Shown here piece by piece: positions 1,606-39,718 of a stretch of DNA of 39,723 nt (the stretch's first letter is position 1; every line of letters begins with the position of its first letter). This stretch comes from Candidatus Brocadia sp. (GTDB lineage Bacteria > Planctomycetota > Brocadiia > Brocadiales > Brocadiaceae). The position numbers and the translations under genes are program-made. The notes beneath the pieces were generated by a model. That model was not told the DNA's origin and did no database searches. It was given only the letters and a program-made list of their open reading frames with translations. Location of the stretch: positions 1 to 39,723 of the forward strand of contig JABWAQ010000021.1 of the NCBI GenBank assembly GCA_013360945.1, read 5' to 3'.

Positions 1606-3249
1606 GTGCCAAAAATCTTTGACAACATCGAAAACCATTTCGTTCAGGGATTGCATAATACCTTAGACGTGTCTCACAGGGGCGACTTCTGCGTTGGCTA
1701 TTTCAATTTGAGGGGATGGAAACAAGTTGCTATCCAGATGGATAATCTAAAAGGCGGCGATGGTAATTACTGCCGGCTGCTCATCGGCATGCAAAAACCT
1801 CTCCTTGAAATCATACGAGAATATTTTTATAAAACTGAGCAGGGTATTATTGACAATCAAACTGCAGCATCCATTAAAAAGAAACTGGCGCAGGAATTTA
1901 AGGATCAGTTAACCATTGGCATCCCGACGGAAGAAGACGAGATCGGCTTAAGAAGGTTATCGCAACAGATAAAAGACAAAAAAGTCGTTGTTAAACTATT
2001 TTTAAGACACCCATTGCACGCCAAATTATATCTCTTATTCAGAGATGACAAGATTAGTCCCATTATCGGTTACTTAGGCAGCAGTAATTTAACCCTTGCC
2101 GGCCTGCTTCATCAGGGAGAATTAAATGTTGACGTCTTGGAACAGGATGCAGCATCAAAGCTAACAAAATGGTTTGAAGACAGATGGAATGATAGATGGT
2201 GCATTGAAATATCCGGGGAACTGGCAGAAATAATTGATAATAGTTGGGCTGCAGACAGATTAGTTTCGCCTTATCACATCTATCTGAAAATTGCTTACCA
2301 CTTATCTCGTGAAGCCCGCGCAGGTTTGACTGAATTTAAAATCCCAAAGATTCTTCAGGAGAAATTACACAGTTTCCAGCTTCGACTTTTCATTCCGGAA
2401 GATAAGGATTTGGGTATATGCCCGGAGAAATTTATCGAAAGTATTGGAGGCAGGTTGAAAAAAAGGATAGAGGAAAATGCGGAGGTGGTTGGTTCTGACG
2501 AGGTATTTTTTGACGGCGACCCCGTTAAGATTCACGATTTTTACAACGAAAAACAGGGGATCCTTGATGAAGAAGATGACACAGAGGTTGATCTGGCGTC
2601 CTATGCTTATCAGATATGGAAAAATGCCACTGATGCCGACCCTACCCTGAAAAAGACAATCCCTGATTTGCCTCATGTAATTTATGCCACGAAGTCATTA
2701 AAACAGGAAGACGAAAAAAAGAACGAAGGCGTTGTCGTTTATACAAGAATGGCTGACGATAATGATGTCTTAGTATGGGTGGATAGAAATGGGGAAATCA
2801 TTACCCAATCTCAGCATGAAATTCTTAAAGCGGCAGAGTGCAATTCCGATACCCCGGCGTTATATAAACTGGATAATCATCACAAGCTCGTGGAGAAGGG
2901 CATTGAACACATAAGGCAAGTTGAAAGCGCCATTGGCGGTCAGTTAGGCAAAAAATCAGGCGCACGTTACCGGACATATATGCGGTTGAACCGCTACTAT
3001 GAGGAATACAAAGGCACCCTGTTTGTAAATGAGGCGCTGAAAAGGGCTATCGATGATATCTACAAATTTCCATTAAAAGAATTTGCCCGGGAAACATTAA
3101 ACAGGCAGTTAAAAGCCGGTATTTCTGACGAAGACCTGGCAAATCTGATAGTATCATTACGGAACGAAAATAAATTATGCAATACGAAGGAAGAGGAAAA
3201 GACCTATAAAGAACCACAAATCATTTGTTCTTTAGGATTAATTAGGTAG
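1606..3249 (+). CDS. PLD-domain protein, apparently an SNF2 helicase with its ATPase core deleted in frame
   Basis: The 547-residue frame starts with a phospholipase D-like domain: His138 and Lys140 in HPLHAKLYL, then GYLGSSNLTLAGL around 155-167. In the long PLD-SNF2 helicases this is followed by about 30 residues (SPYHIYLKIAYHLS, LTEFKIP), then FQ and the ATPase core. Here FQ at residue 258 is followed directly by LRLFIPEDKDLGI, which in those proteins lies after motif III. Walker A, DEAH and the SAT motif are therefore absent. The C-terminal part (KFPLKEFARETLNRQL, EPQIICSLGLI) resembles the normal helicase tail, and the stop codon TAG is supplied by the adjacent REP palindrome. The GTG start has AAAAGGAG 15 bases upstream, a long spacing. 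It may be a stable relic or a PLD-only protein. The parent alignment is from memory of the family. Confidence 0.7.
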   Translation: MPKIFDNIENHFVQGLHNTLDVSHRGDFCVGYFNLRGWKQVAIQMDNLKGGDGNYCRLLIGMQKPLLEIIREYFYKTEQGIIDNQTAASIKKKLAQEFKDQLTIGIPTEEDEIGLRRLSQQIKDKKVVVKLFLRHPLHAKLYLLFRDDKISPIIGYLGSSNLTLAGLLHQGELNVDVLEQDAASKLTKWFEDRWNDRWCIEISGELAEIIDNSWAADRLVSPYHIYLKIAYHLSREARAGLTEFKIPKILQEKLHSFQLRLFIPEDKDLGICPEKFIESIGGRLKKRIEENAEVVGSDEVFFDGDPVKIHDFYNEKQGILDEEDDTEVDLASYAYQIWKNATDADPTLKKTIPDLPHVIYATKSLKQEDEKKNEGVVVYTRMADDNDVLVWVDRNGEIITQSQHEILKAAECNSDTPALYKLDNHHKLVEKGIEHIRQVESAIGGQLGKKSGARYRTYMRLNRYYEEYKGTLFVNEALKRAIDDIYKFPLKEFARETLNRQLKAGISDEDLANLIVSLRNENKLCNTKEEEKTYKEPQIICSLGLIR

Positions 3250-3319
3250 GGGCGAAGCATTTTTTCACACCGAATAAATAATGCCAGAATCTTGTTCACA
3301 AAAAATGCTTCGCCCCTAC
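3246..3319. repeat. REP palindrome, copy 1
   Basis: The arms GTAGGGGCGAAGCATTTTTT and AAAAAATGCTTCGCCCCTAC form a near-perfect inverted repeat around an unrelated loop of about 34 bases. Related copies lie at 3689-3768 and 4159-4230, bracketing and entering the RAYT gene. The left arm supplies the stop codon of the PLD-domain gene. Confidence 0.9.
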
Positions 3320-3379
3320 AATCAACAATCAATAATTAACAACCAATGGAGTCGTAAATAACCATATAATAAAACAACC

Positions 3380-4150
3380 ATGCAACAAAACAAAAATACA
3401 AACTGCAATTCACAAAAACACCATCGCTGTTCAATAAGGCTGAAGGGATACGATTATACCTGGCCAGGCGCATATTTTGTGACCCTATGTACAGAAACAA
3501 GAAAATGCCTGTTTGGGGAAATTTCTGACGAAACCATGCAATTGAATACATTCGGCAATATGATTCATGCGTGTTGGAATAGCATACCAAAACATTTTGT
3601 ACACATTCGATTGGATGCATGTGTTGTTATGCCAAATCATATCCATGGAATTATAATTATTACGGAACGTGATTGTGGAAATAACGCCAATGGTAGGGGC
3701 GAAGCATTTTCCGTGACAAGACCCGGGCACAATTTTAATGGTGAGGAAAATGCTTCGCCCCTACCATTAAATCCACATTCACATCAAATGAATCGGCCGA
3801 ATGGAACATCATCTGGTTCGCTGGGGGCAATTATGCAAAACTTCAAGTCGGTCTCCACGAGAAAAATCAACCAATCAAACAAGACCCCTGGCGTTACGCT
3901 CTGGCAGCGCAACTATTATGAACACATCGTCCGGAATAAACATTCATTAAACGCCATTCGTCGTTATATTACCTATAATCCACTTATGTGGGCATATGAT
4001 ATGGATAATCCAGACAGGTATCACGTATCTGAAGAAGAATTGAAACACAAAATGAAAAAGAGATGTAATTTTACCGATGACGAATTGAATTTCATCGTCA
4101 ATTACGAAATCAAATACCACACGGGACGGGATCATGACAACAAACCGTGA
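3380..4150 (+). CDS. REP-associated tyrosine transposase (RAYT, Y1_Tnp family) with REP inside the frame
   Basis: A 256-residue single-strand transposase of the TnpA-REP/Y1 class, the family thought to mobilise REP/BIME palindromes. Seen: RLKGYDYTWPGAYFVTLCT at the N-terminus, the HUH metal-binding pair His87 and His89 in VVMPNHIHGII, and the candidate catalytic Tyr196 in RRYITYNPLMW. Residues about 104-129 (GRGEAF...ENASPLP) are encoded by a REP palindrome and separate the HUH half from the tyrosine half. REP copies also flank the gene on both sides, which fits self-recognised substrate sites. There is no good ribosome-binding site before ATG 3380. The reading frame is open, but activity with the insert is uncertain. 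The stop overlaps the start of the next ORF. Confidence 0.9.
   Translation: MQQNKNTNCNSQKHHRCSIRLKGYDYTWPGAYFVTLCTETRKCLFGEISDETMQLNTFGNMIHACWNSIPKHFVHIRLDACVVMPNHIHGIIIITERDCGNNANGRGEAFSVTRPGHNFNGEENASPLPLNPHSHQMNRPNGTSSGSLGAIMQNFKSVSTRKINQSNKTPGVTLWQRNYYEHIVRNKHSLNAIRRYITYNPLMWAYDMDNPDRYHVSEEELKHKMKKRCNFTDDELNFIVNYEIKYHTGRDHDNKP
3689..3768. repeat. REP palindrome, copy 2, inside the RAYT gene
   Basis: Arms AATGGTAGGGGCGAAGCATT and AATGCTTCGCCCCTACCATT are inverted copies. The palindrome is translated in frame as GRGEAF and ENASPLP within the RAYT protein. Confidence 0.9.
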
Positions 4151-4712
4151 TCAGAACCGTAGGGGCGAAGCATTTTTTTCACCCGATGAATTGCGCCAGG
4201 ATCTTGTGGCAAAAAATGCTTCGCCCCTACCTCGAAACAATTTACATTATATAGGCAATAAACAAATACTCGAACAATACAAAATCGCCTTCTTGTGCTC
4301 CCGCAAATGCCCGGCAGATATCATCCTCAAATCATATGACTGGGCAATAGAACAAAGAGAAAAAGGCATCTGCGTCGTATCAGGTTTTCATTCCAAAATA
4401 GAGAAAGACGTTTTGCATTACCTGCTGAAAGGCAATCAGTCTATCATACTGGTACTGGCAAGAGGGCTGAAAAAAAGACTCGAACCAGCACTACAAAAAG
4501 CCTTGGACAAAAACAGCCTCCTGCTTATTTCACAATTTGACAAGGATGTTAAAAGAGTTACTAGAGAAACTGCAAACCAGAGAAACCGTCTTATGGGAGA
4601 ACTGGCGGACGAAATATTTGTCGCCTATTCCACACAAGGCGGAAATATTGAAAAGCTCATTACGGACATTTCACATACAGGAAAAACAATTTCATCTTTT
4701 AAAACCAGGTAA
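4134..4712 (+). CDS. DprA/Smf-like Rossmann protein with REP-encoded N-terminus
   Basis: 192 residues. From about residue 36 the protein resembles the DprA/Smf Rossmann fold: YIGNKQILEQYKIAFLCSRKC, then GICVVSGFHSKIEKDVLHYL, and SQFDKDVKRVTRETANQRNRLM, matching the conserved DprA-type region where ssDNA-binding residues lie. Full DprA proteins run to about 280-370 residues and carry extra domains; this is the short stand-alone type, often annotated simply as DNA-processing protein and sometimes found near defence genes. Residues 10-32 (RGEAFF...KNASPLP) come from REP copy 3, and ATG 4134 lies in the last codons of the RAYT gene. The native start may therefore have been lost, with translation now coupled to the transposase. 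No function beyond nucleotide or ssDNA binding can be claimed. Confidence 0.7.
   Translation: MTTNRDQNRRGEAFFSPDELRQDLVAKNASPLPRNNLHYIGNKQILEQYKIAFLCSRKCPADIILKSYDWAIEQREKGICVVSGFHSKIEKDVLHYLLKGNQSIILVLARGLKKRLEPALQKALDKNSLLLISQFDKDVKRVTRETANQRNRLMGELADEIFVAYSTQGGNIEKLITDISHTGKTISSFKTR
4159..4230. repeat. REP palindrome, copy 3
   Basis: GTAGGGGCGAAGCATTTTTT is paired with AAAAAATGCTTCGCCCCTAC across a 30-base spacer that includes GATCTTGTGG. It lies inside the DprA-like reading frame just after its start. Confidence 0.9.
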
Positions 4713-13264: not shown

Positions 13265-14682
13265 TTCTTTAACTTCTCCAACAATTCTTTCCCTTTCTCT
13301 GTAGTCCTATACTTTTGCAGTCTACTTTGGGGTTTATTGGGGACAGTCATCTCCAATAAGCCCTCGGATAATAACGGATTGATGAATTTATTTCTGAATT
13401 TTGTGCGATTTGCCCATTCAAATTCCTTTTGCATATCCTGAATCGCTTTAGCAGTTGAACAATAAACTAATGTGCGCATCGCTTCTTCAGAACTTAGTCC
13501 CAACTTAATCCCAACTTGGTCCCAACTTAGTCCCAACTTGGTCTCAACTTGGTAGGTCTTTTTGTAAACAGTAACCATAAAACCGCCGCTTATTTCCTTG
13601 AATTCAGGAGTTGGAAGTCCATATTCCTTAAATCCGTTAAGAATTCTCTTAATGCCTGAGCCGTATTTCTCTATCAAACCAGCAGATTTAAAGGCCTCTG
13701 CTATCTTCTTGTTGCGGGCGATTGAAACATAATCACCTTTTAAAAGCTTGGCTATGGTTAGCCCATCAGGTAGCTTGCCGGGGTTAAAAAATTCAATTTT
13801 ATTATCATAAATCTTGATTATAGAGTCCGCCGGACTTGTGTAATCCCTGTGTATAATTGCATTAATGACTATTTCACGGATTGCATTAAGTGGATAATCC
13901 CATCGCTCTTCTCGCTGTGGCCTGCCGGTAATAATGTATGCCTTGTTGATATGTTTTTTAATAAAATCCATGACTCCCTCTACCTCTGAAAAAAGGTCGG
14001 CTTTGAGAGTGTCACCATCCTTAATAATGGTATCTGTCTGAAACCTGCCGAGTTCTATGGTGCTGATACCCGATTCTCCTGTCATAAAAAGGAGAAAGCA
14101 TGCGTGTGTTATTTTGCCTTCCCGCATCAATTCAAATTTCTGCAATACTGTCAGCGGGTCATCCAGAATAGGATTCTCTCTGTTCGTATTGGTACGCTCA
14201 ATGAAGCCCTGAACCTTATCAAGCGAAATGTCTTTTCCGGAGTGATGCTCATCAATATGGAAGTCCCAGCTTGAGTTGAATGTCCTGAGGTGTAAATTTA
14301 CCACTTCTGATACAGATAACTGGTGGTTTGCATTCTTGATGCGTTTGTAATATCTCCCCTTGCATGCAACAGGTTTCATTGGTGATTCCTGCACAGAAAG
14401 GATTACAATATTCTTCTTTTTGATTGTTCCAATCTCAACATCAGGTATTATTGCATGTGATGTATCTTGTTTGACATGATTAATCCAGTTTTGGACAGTC
14501 TCTTTGCCGACTTCTGTTCCGTTTATCTCTCCCTTATCGGATACGCCAATAAAAACCTTGCCGCCACTGGTATTGGCAAAGGCTACAAGGGTTTCTATAG
14601 CCTCCCGGTCAAAGCTGAGTTTGAATTCAACTGTCTCAGACTCGCCGGCATTAAGCATCTTGTTAGTTTTCGTATCCATCAT
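13261..14682 (-). CDS. AlbA_2 (Schlafen-like) DNA-binding / ATP-binding regulator
   Basis: 473 residues. An N-terminal AlbA_2 domain (ESETVEFKLSFD, LVAFANTSGGKVFIGVSDKG, ACKGRYYKRIKNANHQLS, about 10-125) is followed by a GHKL/HATPase_c_4-type region (YPLNAIREIVINAIIHRDYT, KIYDNKIEFFNPG, ARNKKIAEAF, EKYGSGIKRI) and a C-terminal winged helix ending YRTTEKGKELLEKLKK. These proteins are usually annotated as RecG-like or putative transcriptional regulators. The linker before the winged helix is written by six 11-nt repeats (IKLGLS, DQVG). The gene starts inside the tail of a decayed helicase. ATG 14682 and 14679 are adjacent alternatives. Role unproven; islands with PLD-SNF2 helicases suggest a defence or mobile context. 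Confidence 0.88.
   Translation of the reverse strand: MMDTKTNKMLNAGESETVEFKLSFDREAIETLVAFANTSGGKVFIGVSDKGEINGTEVGKETVQNWINHVKQDTSHAIIPDVEIGTIKKKNIVILSVQESPMKPVACKGRYYKRIKNANHQLSVSEVVNLHLRTFNSSWDFHIDEHHSGKDISLDKVQGFIERTNTNRENPILDDPLTVLQKFELMREGKITHACFLLFMTGESGISTIELGRFQTDTIIKDGDTLKADLFSEVEGVMDFIKKHINKAYIITGRPQREERWDYPLNAIREIVINAIIHRDYTSPADSIIKIYDNKIEFFNPGKLPDGLTIAKLLKGDYVSIARNKKIAEAFKSAGLIEKYGSGIKRILNGFKEYGLPTPEFKEISGGFMVTVYKKTYQVETKLGLSWDQVGIKLGLSSEEAMRTLVYCSTAKAIQDMQKEFEWANRTKFRNKFINPLLSEGLLEMTVPNKPQSRLQKYRTTEKGKELLEKLKK
13491..13556. repeat. Six 11-nt tandem repeats within the AlbA_2 gene
   Basis: Six consecutive units of the form AACTTRGTCCC (variants AACTTAATCCC, AACTTGGTCTC, AACTTGGTAGG). 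Eleven is not a multiple of three, so loss or gain of one unit would shift the frame ahead of the C-terminal winged helix. Confidence 0.9.
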
Positions 14683-21120: not shown

Positions 21121-21471
21121 GTGCTTCTTCATTTCTTAATGACTATCTCTGCCCTGTCTCTTGTCGTATCAGGCGGAAGTTATTTTTCCGCTAAAATAAA
21201 AACCCTCTTTTGTATGCTCCTCTTGTTCTACACGTCTAATACCTTGCTTTCTTCTTTCTTAATTTATAACTTTAATATTATTTTTTTTTATACCATCGTA
21301 ACTTTTTTTGTTGTCTTGCCGCTTGTGTGCCTCATCCTGTTTGCCCTTGATGTATACTACGGATTGTTTTGTATAGACACCTCTTTTGTATTCGTCTTTA
21401 TCTGGCTATTGATCCCCGCATTTTTTACTATAAATCTTTTTTCTTATCTCCTAAAGGTATTTCATGCCTGA
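21121..21471 (+). CDS. Small hydrophobic membrane protein
   Basis: 116 residues from GTG 21121, almost entirely hydrophobic with about four spans (FLMTISALSLVVSGGSYF, LFCMLLLFYTSNTLLSSFLI, IIFFYTIVTFFVVLPLVCLI, FVFIWLLIPAFFTINLFSYL). I do not recognise a family. It overlaps the start of lpxB by eight bases, so the two are likely translated together. It starts only 30 bases after the FNT terminator, so its promoter must lie in or close to that terminator. A lipid A export or envelope role is possible from the overlap but not shown. Confidence 0.65.
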   Translation: MLLHFLMTISALSLVVSGGSYFSAKIKTLFCMLLLFYTSNTLLSSFLIYNFNIIFFYTIVTFFVVLPLVCLILFALDVYYGLFCIDTSFVFVFIWLLIPAFFTINLFSYLLKVFHA

Positions 21472-22615
21472 AATTTCCGGGAAGATATTTATTAGCGCAG
21501 GAGACCCATCGGGGGATATTCACGGGGCAAACCTTATACGCTGCTTGCTCGAAAAAGACCCTCACATTACCTTCTACGGACTTGGCAGAGAAAACATGAT
21601 ACAAGCGGGATTACATAGTCTCCATGACATGTCACAAAAATCTTTAATGTGGCTTCATGTCTTAACGGAGTTATCAACCTTCCTGCAAATGAAAAAAGAT
21701 TGCATCCGGTTTTTAAAACGGGAGAACCCTGGCGTGGTTGTTCTGATTGATTATTGCGGTTTCAATTTTTATATAGCAAAAGCGGCGAAAAAACTGGGTA
21801 TCCCTGTGGTTTACTATGTCAGCCCCCAACTCTGGGCACATGGTCCCTGGCGGATAAAAAAGATGAAAAAACTGGTAGACAAGCTGCTTGTCATCTACCC
21901 TTTTGAAAAACCCTTTTATGAGAATGCCGGTATTCCTGTCGTCTATGTGGGGCATCCGCTCTTCGATGAAATCATCAAAGAGGGAGGAAATGAAGGATTT
22001 GTTGATGACCTCAAAAAACAACCCGGTGAACCCGTCGTCTCTTTTCTTCCGGGCAGCCGCAGGCAGGAAATTGTCCGGTTATTGCCTTTGTTTCTGCAAT
22101 CAGCTGTGCAAATTCACCAAAAAATCCCCCTGGCACAATTTCTCATCTCCTGCAGCAATGAACAACACCGTGATCTTATCCATGAAATTGCGAAGGAATT
22201 CCGCATCCCACATAAAATTGTCTTAGGAAACGTTCATGAGATAATCAATGCATCCAGTCTTTGTATCGCCGGAGCCGGGACCATTACATTACAAATCGCC
22301 TATTACCGGAAACCGATGATTATTGTTTACAAAATATCGCCATTTGCTTACTTTATATCCAGGCCTTTCCTGACAACCCCGTATATCGGTCTTGTGAATA
22401 AGCTTGCTCATAAGATGATTGTCCCGGAACTCCTCATGTGCAGAGGGAATTACCCCTGGATTGCCGGTCAGGCGATACAATTACTCAGCAATCCTCAAAA
22501 AAGGCATGATTGTATTCAAGAACTATCCCTGCTCATGGATACCATTGCAAGGCCAGGTGCATCAGGACACGCGGCGGCAGAGATACTCAAATTAAGGATC
22601 CAACAATCACCATAA
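21464..22615 (+). CDS. lpxB: Lipid-A-disaccharide synthase
   Basis: 383 residues, the normal length. The N-terminus KIFISAGDPSGDIHGANLI is the classic LpxB signature; further family blocks are LMWLHVLTELSTFLQMKK, VVLIDYCGFNFYIAKAAKK, YVSPQLWAHGPWRIKKMKK, LLVIYPFEKPFYENAGIPVVYVGHPL, FLPGSRRQEI and ASSLCIAGAGTITLQIA. LpxB is a GT19 glycosyltransferase joining UDP-2,3-diacylglucosamine and lipid X on the inner membrane face. It shows the organism has lipid A and so an outer membrane. It starts inside the end of the small membrane gene. Other lpx genes are not in the window. Confidence 0.97.
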   Translation: MPEISGKIFISAGDPSGDIHGANLIRCLLEKDPHITFYGLGRENMIQAGLHSLHDMSQKSLMWLHVLTELSTFLQMKKDCIRFLKRENPGVVVLIDYCGFNFYIAKAAKKLGIPVVYYVSPQLWAHGPWRIKKMKKLVDKLLVIYPFEKPFYENAGIPVVYVGHPLFDEIIKEGGNEGFVDDLKKQPGEPVVSFLPGSRRQEIVRLLPLFLQSAVQIHQKIPLAQFLISCSNEQHRDLIHEIAKEFRIPHKIVLGNVHEIINASSLCIAGAGTITLQIAYYRKPMIIVYKISPFAYFISRPFLTTPYIGLVNKLAHKMIVPELLMCRGNYPWIAGQAIQLLSNPQKRHDCIQELSLLMDTIARPGASGHAAAEILKLRIQQSP

Positions 22616-22686: not shown

Positions 22687-23169
22687 TGTCCCCCGCTGGC
22701 GGGGGTGCAGGGGGTGGAAATGGAACGCGGAAATCATGCGAAAAAAACCAAAAGCCGACGGAACCAATAATTACGCCTACAACAAACGATTACAACCGAT
22801 TGAAACAGCCTGCGTAAGAAAATGACGAAAGCAGAGGCTTGCCTCTGGAAATATGCACTGCTAGCCGGACAGATTAAGGGCTATCAATTCAGGAGGCAAA
22901 GGCGCCCGTGCTGCAATATATCGCAGACTTCCTCTGTAAGGAATTGAAGCTGATCATTGAGGTTGATGGGATAACTCATTTAAACGTTGAAACAAGTAAA
23001 AAAGATAAGCGTAAGGCCTGTGCGCTTGAAAGCGCCGGGTTTACCATAATCAGGTTTACCGACGAAGATGTATTGAAGAATATGAGCGGTGTTATACAGA
23101 GGATTGTACGGGTAGTTGACATGATCGGGCGGTCTAGTCCACCCCCTGCACCCCCGCCAGCGGGGGACA
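22687..23169. mobile_element. Unit with 32-bp terminal inverted repeats carrying a DUF559 gene, copy A
   Basis: Positions 22687-22718 and 23138-23169 are perfect inverted copies (32 of 32); each arm contains its own GC palindrome (CCCCCGCTGGCGGGGG). Between them lies only a broken DUF559 endonuclease gene. A decayed unit with the same ends and fragments of the same interior is at 37109-37342. I see no transposase and no obvious target duplication. Confidence 0.75.
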
Positions 23170-23174
23170 TGTGA
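22736..23174 (+). pseudogene. DUF559 (Vsr-like) endonuclease, frameshifted
   Basis: The typical protein has about 120 residues: YNKRLQP..., LRKxMTKAEACLWKYxL, QFRRQRPVLQYIADFxC, ELKLIIEVDG, then FTIIRFTDEDVL. All these blocks are here but in three frames. YNKRLQPIE sits in the frame of ATG 22736; MTKAEACLWKYALLAG...GYQFRRQR begins at ATG 22822 in another; and PVLQYIADFLCKELKLIIEVDG to the end lies in the frame of GTG 22908. There are thus two frameshifts. DUF559 is related to Vsr and PD-(D/E)XK nucleases. The 88-residue 3' part alone is open but lacks the N-terminal helix. Confidence 0.85.
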
Positions 23175-23215: not shown

Positions 23216-23442
23216 GACTCACGAATTTCGTGCTTCGGATTCGTCTTTTCCGACTTGTTCGGGTTAGGGTGTAGCATAAATGAGAGTTTAATGATAATTA
23301 TTGATTCCTTAACTTCATACGTATGGGGTAACCGGGGTTGTGATAATGGTAAAACAATCCCCTACCCCATGTGTATCAAGTTTTGGGGTAGTGCGATGTA
23401 CAGTTATTGGCAATGACTGCTCAATAGCAGCTTTTTGGATTT

Positions 23443-23682: not shown

Positions 23683-24675
23683 TCAACCGGCCACTGGTAT
23701 CCGGTAGAGACATGTATGGATTTGTTCCGGATGAAAGATCATATGAGACGGGCGGTAATGATGCCAATCTCTGTCGTCCGGGACGTGGTGCTCCAGATAT
23801 GGCCACTTACGAAATGGGTCTACTCCTAATGCCTGAATGAGTTTCCGGTTGCTCATCGTAACATTTCCCGCTCTTGGAGGCATGGGGCCTGCCTCTTTAC
23901 GCATGCAGCCTTTCAGCAATTTTGAGGCATAACCACCAACCTTATTGACGATTTGCCCGATCTGATACAGGCTGAGATGCCGGTGTGAACCGAGATGGTA
24001 AATACCCCGGATTTTATTTCCCAGGGTGAGATCCATAACCTTATTGAAATCTTCACAATAGAAAGGAGATCTCACTTCATCATAATATAATGTGGCCGGG
24101 TTGTTTTTTTTAAACCGGGATAGTATCCAGTCAATGGCCCCTGCATGCCCATTGACGCTGACCCCCATGGGTAGCGATATGCGGAAAATTGTCGCAGACG
24201 GATATCTGAGCATAACAATCTCTTCGGCTACGGCCATCGTCTTGCCATACATGGTGACAGGGGATACCGTATTTTCCTCCGCGTATAATCCTTCTGCCTT
24301 TCCGGGAAATACCAAATCCGTAGAAAGGTGGATGAGTCGGGTATCATGGTTCCCGATCATCTCCAGCACGTTCAAAACCGATTGCACATTCACACGATAG
24401 GCCAGTACAGCATTCATTTCACAGGATTTTAAGGCGCAGGAGCCTGCCCCATTCAACACAGACCGGAACTTCTTCTGTTTCATCAACTCCACAAGCCCCC
24501 TGCGGTCTTCTATATCCAGAGGAATAATACCTTCCCCTTTGAGCGGCCAATAACGAACGGGACGGATACCAGTAACGTGGTTTGGATACTTTGCATGGAA
24601 ATATCGAAAGGCGCTATACCCGGGCACCCCGGTTACACCCGTAATTAGGAGTGGTAAAAAAGATGGTAAAGACAT
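23683..24675 (-). CDS. RmlD-like SDR-family oxidoreductase
   Basis: 330 residues from ATG 24675 (TTG 24684 is an alternative). An extended short-chain dehydrogenase: nucleotide motif LLITGVTGVPGYSAF near residue 8, RLIHLSTDLVFPGKAEG with the conserved Ser-Thr-Asp, and catalytic YGKT (Tyr-x-x-x-Lys form). GIYHLGSHRHLSLYQIGQIV and RAGNVTMSNRKLIQALGVDP fit the RmlD substrate-binding C-terminus. RmlD itself reduces dTDP-4-dehydrorhamnose; relatives act on other nucleotide sugars. No rml genes are present, so the substrate is unknown. It lies about 110 bases downstream of the acyl-CoA ligase gene on the same strand. Confidence 0.85.
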   Translation of the reverse strand: MSLPSFLPLLITGVTGVPGYSAFRYFHAKYPNHVTGIRPVRYWPLKGEGIIPLDIEDRRGLVELMKQKKFRSVLNGAGSCALKSCEMNAVLAYRVNVQSVLNVLEMIGNHDTRLIHLSTDLVFPGKAEGLYAEENTVSPVTMYGKTMAVAEEIVMLRYPSATIFRISLPMGVSVNGHAGAIDWILSRFKKNNPATLYYDEVRSPFYCEDFNKVMDLTLGNKIRGIYHLGSHRHLSLYQIGQIVNKVGGYASKLLKGCMRKEAGPMPPRAGNVTMSNRKLIQALGVDPFRKWPYLEHHVPDDRDWHHYRPSHMIFHPEQIHTCLYRIPVAG

Positions 24676-24792
24676 ATCACGCAAGCCACATAATACCAGG
24701 ATAGCAAGTGGCGACAGTATAGTGGCTGGGAAAAGGGATTATCCGTGTTATATAACTGAGAGGTCGCAAGATTGTCACGCTCCAATAATCGG

Positions 24793-29650: not shown

Positions 29651-29749
29651 ACAACCCCCTGTATTCCCCTTTATTAATGGGGAACTCAGAAATCCCCATT
29701 AGGGGGGCATCAGCAATCCCACTTAGTAAAGGGGGATACAGGGGGTTGT
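29651..29749. repeat. 99-bp unit with 23-bp inverted ends between dciA and dnaN
   Basis: The first 23 bases (ACAACCCCCTGTATTCCCCT...) match the reverse of the last 23 (...AGGGGGATACAGGGGGTTGT) with one mismatch. Inner arms (ATTAATGGGGA, TCCCCATTAGG) also pair. It has no ORF. It lies where recF is expected. Confidence 0.85.
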
Positions 29750-36873: not shown

Positions 36874-37108
36874 GCCTTAATGCCAGGGATTTCAAACAAG
36901 CGCACCTCCACATTAATCCACCTCACCGGAGGACAACCATCTGTCCCCCGCTGTCGGGGTGAAGGGCATACGTGTTAAGTTAAACGATTGGGTTGGGTGG
37001 CATGGCATGGACAAATCATATTTCTGTATGTCTTGAACAGAGATAGTTTTTCTGTGTCATTCTTGCAACACATAACGGCAAAATCCACTGGAAACGTGGC
37101 TAACCACC

Positions 37109-37342
37109 GTCCCCCGCTGGCGGGGGTTGGGGGTGGAAAAGAAACGCGAAAATACTGTGGGAAAAACTACAAACCGGTGAAACGAATAATTATGACTACA
37201 ACAAATAGTTGCAACCGTTTGCAAACAACCTGCATAATAGTATGTACCGGAGAATATGGGTGGTGTTATACAAAGAGTTGAAAAGTGGTAGGCGTGGTCG
37301 GACTATCCAGTCCACCCCCTGCACCCCCGCCAGCGGGGGACA
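37109..37342. mobile_element. Decayed DUF559 TIR unit, copy B
   Basis: The ends are GTCCCCCGCTGGCGGGGG at the left (missing two bases relative to copy A) and a right arm at 37311-37342 identical to that of copy A. The inside keeps the first part (CGAATAATTATGACTACAAC, cf. CCAATAATTACGCCTACAAC) and the last part (AATATGGGTGGTGTTATACA, cf. AATATGAGCGGTGTTATACA) of the DUF559 gene, with the middle lost. Confidence 0.7.
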
Positions 37343-37539
37343 TGACTGATTCAGCACGAATAAGGGATTAATTGTTATTTCTTAACTTAACAGGTATGGG
37401 GTGAAGGGGGTGGCCCACTGTCGTAAAAATTTGCATTTAATGAAAATGCAAGCCTTGAATTGTAAACTATTGTAAAATGTAGTAAAATTAATATTTTATA
37501 GTGGTAACAATTCAGTTTTTTAACTTATAGGAATTTCAA

Positions 37540-39647: not shown

Positions 39648-39718
39648 GTAGGGTGGGCATCGCCCACCAAAAAATAGGCAACGTGAACGAGATGTTTGGT
39701 GGGCGATGCCCACCCTAC
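39648..39718. repeat. REP-like inverted repeat
   Basis: GTAGGGTGGGCATCGCCCAC (39648 on) is an inverted copy of the arm at 39696-39718; each arm is 23 bases and is itself palindromic. It lies at the window edge, and the region before it (39501-39647) holds no gene I can see. Confidence 0.85.

Follow-up and report, generated by a model that had tools for sequence, protein, structure and literature searches.

A DUF559 nuclease gene between inverted hairpin repeats in Candidatus Brocadia and other bacteria: a possible transposase-free mobile family

The window analysed here is a stretch of 39,723 nucleotides from Candidatus Brocadia sp. (contig JABWAQ010000021.1, assembly GCA_013360945.1). A unit enclosed by two inverted repeats occupies positions 22687–23169, between ORF 21464–22615, which we take to be lpxB, and the minus-strand ORF 23683–24684. 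The left end (22687..22718, plus strand) consists of a hairpin, CCCCCGCTGGCGGGGG, followed by an inward tail, AGGGGGTGGA; the right end (23138..23169, minus strand) is its exact inverted copy over 32 nt, as the original prediction had it, and the two are spaced by 419 nt. The 18-nt hairpin core occurs five times in the window (at most three mismatches), a count reached in 0 of 100 shuffles (mean 0.02). A solitary degenerate copy of the hairpin lies at 36943..36960 (plus strand, two mismatches). The ends had also been expected to fold as palindromes. By sequence they are palindromic (CCCCCGCTGGCGGGGG), but in the best predicted fold of the single-stranded 32-mer the tail is paired in place of the hairpin, and shuffles fold as well (z −0.91). 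Hairpins are predicted for the left end of a second copy in the window (z −1.29; see below) and for four ends from other clades (z −2.2 to −3.5).

The cargo between the ends is DUF559 (PF04480), but the gene is not intact: Pfam recognised it as two plus-strand pieces in different frames. The first (22792..22902, PF04480 positions 4–39) has one TGA within it; the second (22899..23117, positions 38–108) belongs to ORF 22908–23174, which continues through the right end. Since the domain is split over two frames and interrupted by a stop, the focal copy looks dead, and we read the unit as a decayed member of a family. An intact DUF559 copy with the same layout is present elsewhere in this genome (G000:C155:33948–34425, where G000 is this genome).

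To see how the place is arranged in relatives, we used lpxB as a landmark. It was present in 27 of 30 relatives, and 17 of these, of the same family, were inspected at the focal place. None of these 17 carried the hairpin core (at most two mismatches) downstream of lpxB. In nine, lpxB is followed by the same gene as here, with a gap of 18–482 nt in eight and of 1100 nt in one, compared with 1074 nt in the window. By gene order, rather than by aligned junctions, the focal gene pair thus appears without the unit in nine relatives.

The second copy, at 37109–37342, had been described as having the same ends and a deleted interior. Its right end (37311..37342, minus strand) is identical to the focal right end over 32 nt, and its interior consists of two plus-strand remnants, one from the left part of the unit (37122..37224, 75% identity to 22703–22805) and one from the right part of the DUF559 gene (37242..37280, 79% identity to 23068–23106). 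The left end (37109..37137, plus strand) differs in a few letters (GTTGGGGGTGGA for GTGCAGGGGGTGGA), so the description held except at that end. The idea that this copy spread by itself was not borne out: around it lies a larger repeat, which has its own pair of inverted ends, CATACGTGTTAAGTTAA at 36967..36983 (plus strand, no mismatches) and 37382..37398 (minus strand, one mismatch). Copy 2 is a deletion derivative enclosed by this larger repeat. A degenerate inverted end of the larger outer repeat also lies beside the focal unit (23309..23325, minus strand, two mismatches to TTAACTTAACACGTATG); within 600 nt, the best candidate for its left partner has eight mismatches.

We then asked how the repeats are distributed in the genome (3.85 Mb in 196 contigs). 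There are 42 copies of the hairpin core (at most two mismatches). Counted by eye, 20 of these make up 10 pairs that face inward at a distance of no more than 600 bp, and there are no outward pairs; five of the 42 lie at a DUF559 place (two on C155, two on C176, one on C26) and 37 do not. The counter-argument foreseen with the original prediction was that the end is mostly a solitary repeat, with no enrichment of DUF559 between copies. Ends without DUF559 do prevail here (37 of 42), but DUF559 is enriched between ends (75/91 versus 12/743, detailed below). Pfam placed DUF559 at seven places in this genome (eight matches), and reading of the flanks revealed a GC palindrome adjoining every one of them. 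Palindromes are present on both sides at C26, C58, C63 and C155, as at the focal unit, and the places on C193 and C162 run into contig ends. The palindromes differ within the genome, being CCCCCGCTGGCGGGGG at C155 and C176, CCCCCTTTTTTAAAGGGGG at C58 and CCCCTCTAAAAAGAGGGG at C162. The nearest named match to DUF559 of this genome was in a Candidatus Brocadia MAG (96%). At C162 (locus L036) the open frame of DUF559 continues into an ORF upstream (382 aa), after which the contig ends; Pfam families found there (E up to 0.01) are of nuclease type only and confined to the DUF559 part.

The core (at most one mismatch) was found in 31 of 59 genomes, this one included. In four genomes, pairs within 600 bp counted by eye were inward-facing in 26 cases versus two outward (10/0 in this genome, 3/2 in G002, 1/0 in G005 and 12/0 in G020), which is a REPIN-like inverted pairing; the 12 pairs of G020 are largely copies of one repeat and hence not independent. 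G020, a Kuenenia-like genome, holds 65 ends, and longer outer flanks are common to 11 of its 12 pairs (by eye). It is without DUF559 of this kind, giving one weak match (1.9e-4; MTES_1575 scores 69 versus 24 bits). G001 has 15 ends and a single weak DUF559 match (2.9e-5). In these two genomes, either DUF559 was lost after the ends had spread, or the ends are able to spread without it. The G020 pairs (L296–L307) are multi-copy, with a spacing of mostly ~239 or 123 bp, and are nested in the longer shared flanks.

The outer repeats raise the possibility that larger elements with outer inverted ends, moved by a putative transposase, carry DUF559 and its palindromes in their interior. Among 15 clade-11 units, at least one outer end was nearby in four, with both ends at L075 and one L097 unit and a single end at L082 and L095 (at most two mismatches; the best match in 500 shuffles of one stretch had three). 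Together with the shared outer flanks in G020, this indicates that other, larger elements moved such copies. As a general explanation of the units we consider it unlikely: 11 of the 15 clade-11 units have no outer end within 600 nt of the domain, and an HsdS insertion described below begins a few bases from the palindrome.

To obtain a broader estimate of how often DUF559 is bracketed by such repeats, we located the domain with a home-made HMM in this genome, its relatives, the phylum, named contigs and a plasmid collection (25 of 40 records, hand-picked for spread). No phylum locus weaker than ~1e-20 was taken, nor were all partial matches in the relatives, and the sample is weighted to Planctomycetota. 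The survey covers 133 distinct domains, 105 of them full length; 104 have usable flanks, of which 91 belong to ORFs no longer than 300 aa and 13 to larger ORFs. The 91 are distinct full-length domains with at least 60 nt on both flanks; partial domains, the broken focal copy and copies at contig ends fall outside this set. An inverted repeat scoring at least 14 flanked 75 of the 91 (median score 21) versus 12 of 743 control ORFs (median 8), where the DUF559 search windows begin at the domain and the control windows at the ORF. With windows made equal, 4/153 control ORFs and 5/521 virtual positions passed. These controls, and those for the plasmid collection given below, rule out chance palindromes.

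The layout is present in many genomes, and the claim that palindromic ends pair around DUF559 recurrently was borne out. Divided by source, the 91 comprise 80 loci from elsewhere, 70 of which pass, and 11 from the plasmid collection, five of which pass; with 14 further plasmid-collection loci added to these 11, 15/25 pass versus 3/62 controls. When the 91 proteins were collapsed at 70% identity, 38 of 51 clusters had a flanked member, and at 50% identity 21 of 25 did. The passing plasmid-collection loci belong to Cyanobacteriota (Pseudanabaena, Picosynechococcus PCC 7003), Deinococcota and Alphaproteobacteria; units between repeats therefore occur in four phyla, Planctomycetota included. No paired repeat reached a score of 14 at 16 of the 91 loci or at 10 of the 25 plasmid-collection loci. 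These ten are L214 (Neisseria), L216 (E. coli), L218 (Azospirillum brasilense), L219 and L220 (Synechocystis), L223 (Photobacterium), L347 (Shinella), L352 (Picosynechococcus PCC 7002), L357 (Thermoactinomyces) and L358 (Methylobacterium). Both Bacteroidota loci (L101, L102) and the Phycisphaerae locus L106 fail too. At L219, L220 and L352 hairpin-like repeats are nevertheless visible by eye. Ten of the 13 domains in larger ORFs pass, and L036, L079 and L109 fail. L071, an HsdR case, falls below the threshold with a score of 13.

By reading, most ends follow one plan: a C-rich arm, a short loop, a G-rich arm and, 1–6 nt further on, another run of G and its T/G-rich tail. In the HsdS-borne units and in L212 a second hairpin, GGGGTGGC...TGACGGGGTGG, sets off the tail, and Novosphingobium L350 has a similar second-hairpin plan. 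Classified by regular expression at 85 loci, the tail points inward in 40, outward in five and both ways in 23, with 17 unclassified, so that an inward tail is a tendency only. The reading frame enters the right repeat in 57 of 75 short-ORF units.

Within a single locus the left and the right end resemble each other more closely (median score 24) than they resemble ends at other loci of the same clade (14.5) or of other clades (9). Across the 85 passing loci, end distance tracks protein distance (Mantel rho 0.43, with 0 of 2000 permutations as high, in a test inflated by shared ancestry), and rho is still 0.32 where the protein distance exceeds 0.35. Protein clades thus tend to have a hairpin each of their own. 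The coexistence of several clades with different ends in one genome argues against host composition as the sole cause. These data bear on the view that DUF559 is a passenger, and that the palindromes are ordinary REP- or MITE-type repeats, spread in trans by another enzyme, between which it settles or survives. The excess of ends over DUF559 genes, the 12 inward pairs of G020 without a cognate DUF559, and the position of copy 2 and most G020 pairs inside larger repeats are all in its favour. Against it, the two ends of a locus match and tend to track the protein clade, one genome holds different ends for several clades, and none of the 16 Y1-transposase loci of this genome carries these ends. 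We regard the passenger view as a minor, though real, possibility.

Insertions with empty counterparts were found in restriction-modification genes. DUF559 with its repeats lies inside HsdS with the frame kept on both sides at L068, L130, L133, L237 and L238, and at L131 only the C-terminal half is in the same frame. It also lies inside HsdR (L074, L121 and the interrupted L071) and inside HsdM (L073); L071 was assigned to HsdR by its match to L074, as Pfam named no HsdR domain there. The insertions in HsdS, HsdR and HsdM are in frame, and within HsdS and HsdR the palindromes themselves are translated. Two HsdR genes are reciprocal, L074 carrying the insertion at site A but not at site B and L121 at B but not at A. 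Four others (L268, L292, L269 and L270) have DUF559 at neither site. Neither of the HsdS genes L325 and L319 is interrupted; the L325 linker has near-identical bases on either side. At L130 the left junction starts within a few bases of the palindrome, and ~24 nt of linker-like sequence are found at the right. Inspection of the junctions by eye revealed no target-site duplication. The homologous HsdR and HsdS genes with and without an insertion, together with the nine relatives that have the focal gene pair without the unit, bear out the initial impression of a mobile unit.

In Sphingomonas parapaucimobilis, DUF559 genes separate sufB from sufC and one NAD(P) transhydrogenase gene from another, and three Deinococcus plasmids carry DUF559 in one hpa gene cluster, at a different place in each; this is the pattern that repeated insertion would give. 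In the HsdR of L270 (G043:C7), palindrome-like peptides, SPYPSPTPSPTGRGRGEG and SPQPSPSGRG, are translated in frame without DUF559. At L079 and L109, a DNA methylase gene contains an intein-like stretch (its Intein_splicing matches fall short of the Pfam cut-off) that houses DUF559, accompanied by Pro/Gly-rich stretches that resemble translated palindromes.

Such placements could mean that DUF559 homes into restriction-modification and other genes by itself and that the palindromes are neutral linkers or flanking debris. The intein-like stretches at L079 and L109 and the several insertions that share one HsdS linker agree with this, as does the placement of a DUF559 gene in the EDxHD homing nuclease family in an excerpt of PMC9403480. 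Set against this, most domains (91 of 104) occupy short ORFs (up to 300 aa) and not a large target gene, the insertions in HsdR are at two different sites, and the matched ends would go unexplained. We judge site-bound homing of this sort quite improbable.

In the DUF559 protein, W20, Q37, F47, E57, H63 and D72 are invariant in a 56-sequence alignment; among all 104 sequences, the catalytic-type residues E57, H63 and D72 reach 100% after rounding, and D59, also of catalytic type, 96%. The median dN/dS was 0.17 (171 non-independent pairs with dS between 0.05 and 1.5), which indicates purifying selection for function and does not indicate which function; the Pfam entry still reads 'unknown function'. 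When the profile was compared with solved structures (E up to 1), four matches were obtained: 3hrl (7e-34), 3r3p, a 'Mobile intron protein' (9e-6), which we take to be the catalytic domain of I-Bth0305I, and two PvuRts1I chains (0.32). Vsr was not among these four. In the stand-alone ORFs L020 and L032, Pfam gave nuclease-type families only and no Y1 (HUH) transposase.

Vsr mismatch endonucleases resemble DUF559 in being PD-(D/E)XK-type nucleases, and PMC12907096 describes Caulobacter VsrA as a Vsr-like DUF559 protein functionally linked to a methyltransferase, with a predicted role in mismatch repair. The DUF559 unit differs in that no methyltransferase gene was seen inside it. The VsrA case, and the fact that some units lie within restriction-modification genes, would fit a host repair or defence nuclease flanked by terminators or regulatory hairpins. 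Against this, palindromes are translated in frame within HsdS and HsdR, and gene-less pairs and broken copies occur; we give the host-gene explanation very little weight.

A close parallel in layout is REP/REPIN with RAYT (TnpA-REP), which likewise has short palindromes in inward-facing pairs, a palindrome type that goes with the linked gene, and pairs lacking a gene (PMC3116915, in excerpt). The enzyme there is a Y1 (HUH) transposase, whereas the DUF559 unit has a PD-(D/E)XK-type nuclease. The window contains a normal REP/RAYT neighbourhood at 3246–4230, with a Y1-transposase (RAYT-like) match at 3815–3976 between GTAG palindromes, GTAGGGGCGAAGCATT. The clade-I core (at most two mismatches, either strand) was found at 0 of the 16 Y1 loci of this genome, which rules out RAYT as the partner of the DUF559-unit ends. 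Four of the 16 have GTAG in their best flanking pair, the score being low (11.5) at one of these, L151. No GTAG or CGTC tag of the REPIN/RAYT type was seen by reading at the DUF559 unit ends, which have a G-rich tail instead.

EDxHD homing endonucleases of the I-Bth0305I type share a related catalytic domain (3r3p, E 9e-6) and conserved acidic and His residues with DUF559, two copies of which are in intein-like stretches. The units differ from them by their inverted hairpin brackets and by their many unrelated places, mostly without intron or intein; empty HsdR and HsdS sites exist beside occupied ones, but the units are found at many sites. Rickettsia palindromic elements are likewise read in frame within protein genes; the portion of PMC10969869 read mentions no nuclease gene, which sets them apart. 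Mitochondrial mobile GC clusters and double-hairpin elements are GC-rich palindromes that are thought mobile, with nuclease help suggested, but they are organellar and the nucleases are intron-encoded, outside the element (PMC4478555, in excerpt). Compared with MITEs moved by a transposase, the units have outer inverted ends at some copies and no junction duplication recognised by eye. In the open-access literature, which mostly excludes subscription papers, searches gave nothing on DUF559 with inverted repeats and nothing on Vsr with repetitive extragenic palindromic sequences. We file the element under no known family: it resembles REPIN in layout, homing elements in its enzyme and Rickettsia palindromes in its in-frame insertions, but shows neither the Y1 transposase nor the GTAG tag of REPIN/RAYT.

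We favour, at a probability of roughly 0.5, the reading that these are a family of small mobile units in which one DUF559 gene, encoding a Vsr-like or EDxHD-type nuclease, lies between inverted hairpin-plus-tail repeats, and which spreads without a transposase, in a homing-like manner, by cutting of the ends and repair. The DUF559 nuclease would recognise its own kind of end and cut or nick the DNA at that cognate end; repair would then copy the unit, or a gene-less end pair, into the break. We infer, in other words, that DUF559 is the cause of movement, the ends its substrate and repair the copier. More tentatively, and at somewhat less than even odds, bacteria of at least four phyla may harbour a second class of palindromic mobile elements, independent of RAYT and with DUF559 as its dedicated enzyme. 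In such a class a homing-type nuclease would cut cognate ends and host repair would copy both units and gene-less pairs, and restriction-modification genes would be among those invaded in frame. The genomes examined here are crowded with such GC palindromes, which have no known driver. If DUF559 and the palindromes belong together, a nuclease without transposase activity would spread REP-like repeats. Homing nucleases would then be linked to REP elements, the origin of the palindromes would become testable, and the odd Pro/Gly-rich linkers and extra nuclease domains in HsdS, HsdR and HsdM would be explained.

The window holds further repeats. An inverted pair of 33 nt (88%, 33 nt apart) at 29651–29749 is of another, CCCCC/GGGGG palindrome type. 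A tandem repeat of an 11-bp unit, CTTAGTCCCAA, occupies 13482–13547, and an exact 24-nt inverted pair, GTAGGGTGGGCATCGCCCACC, lies at the window edge (39648–39718).
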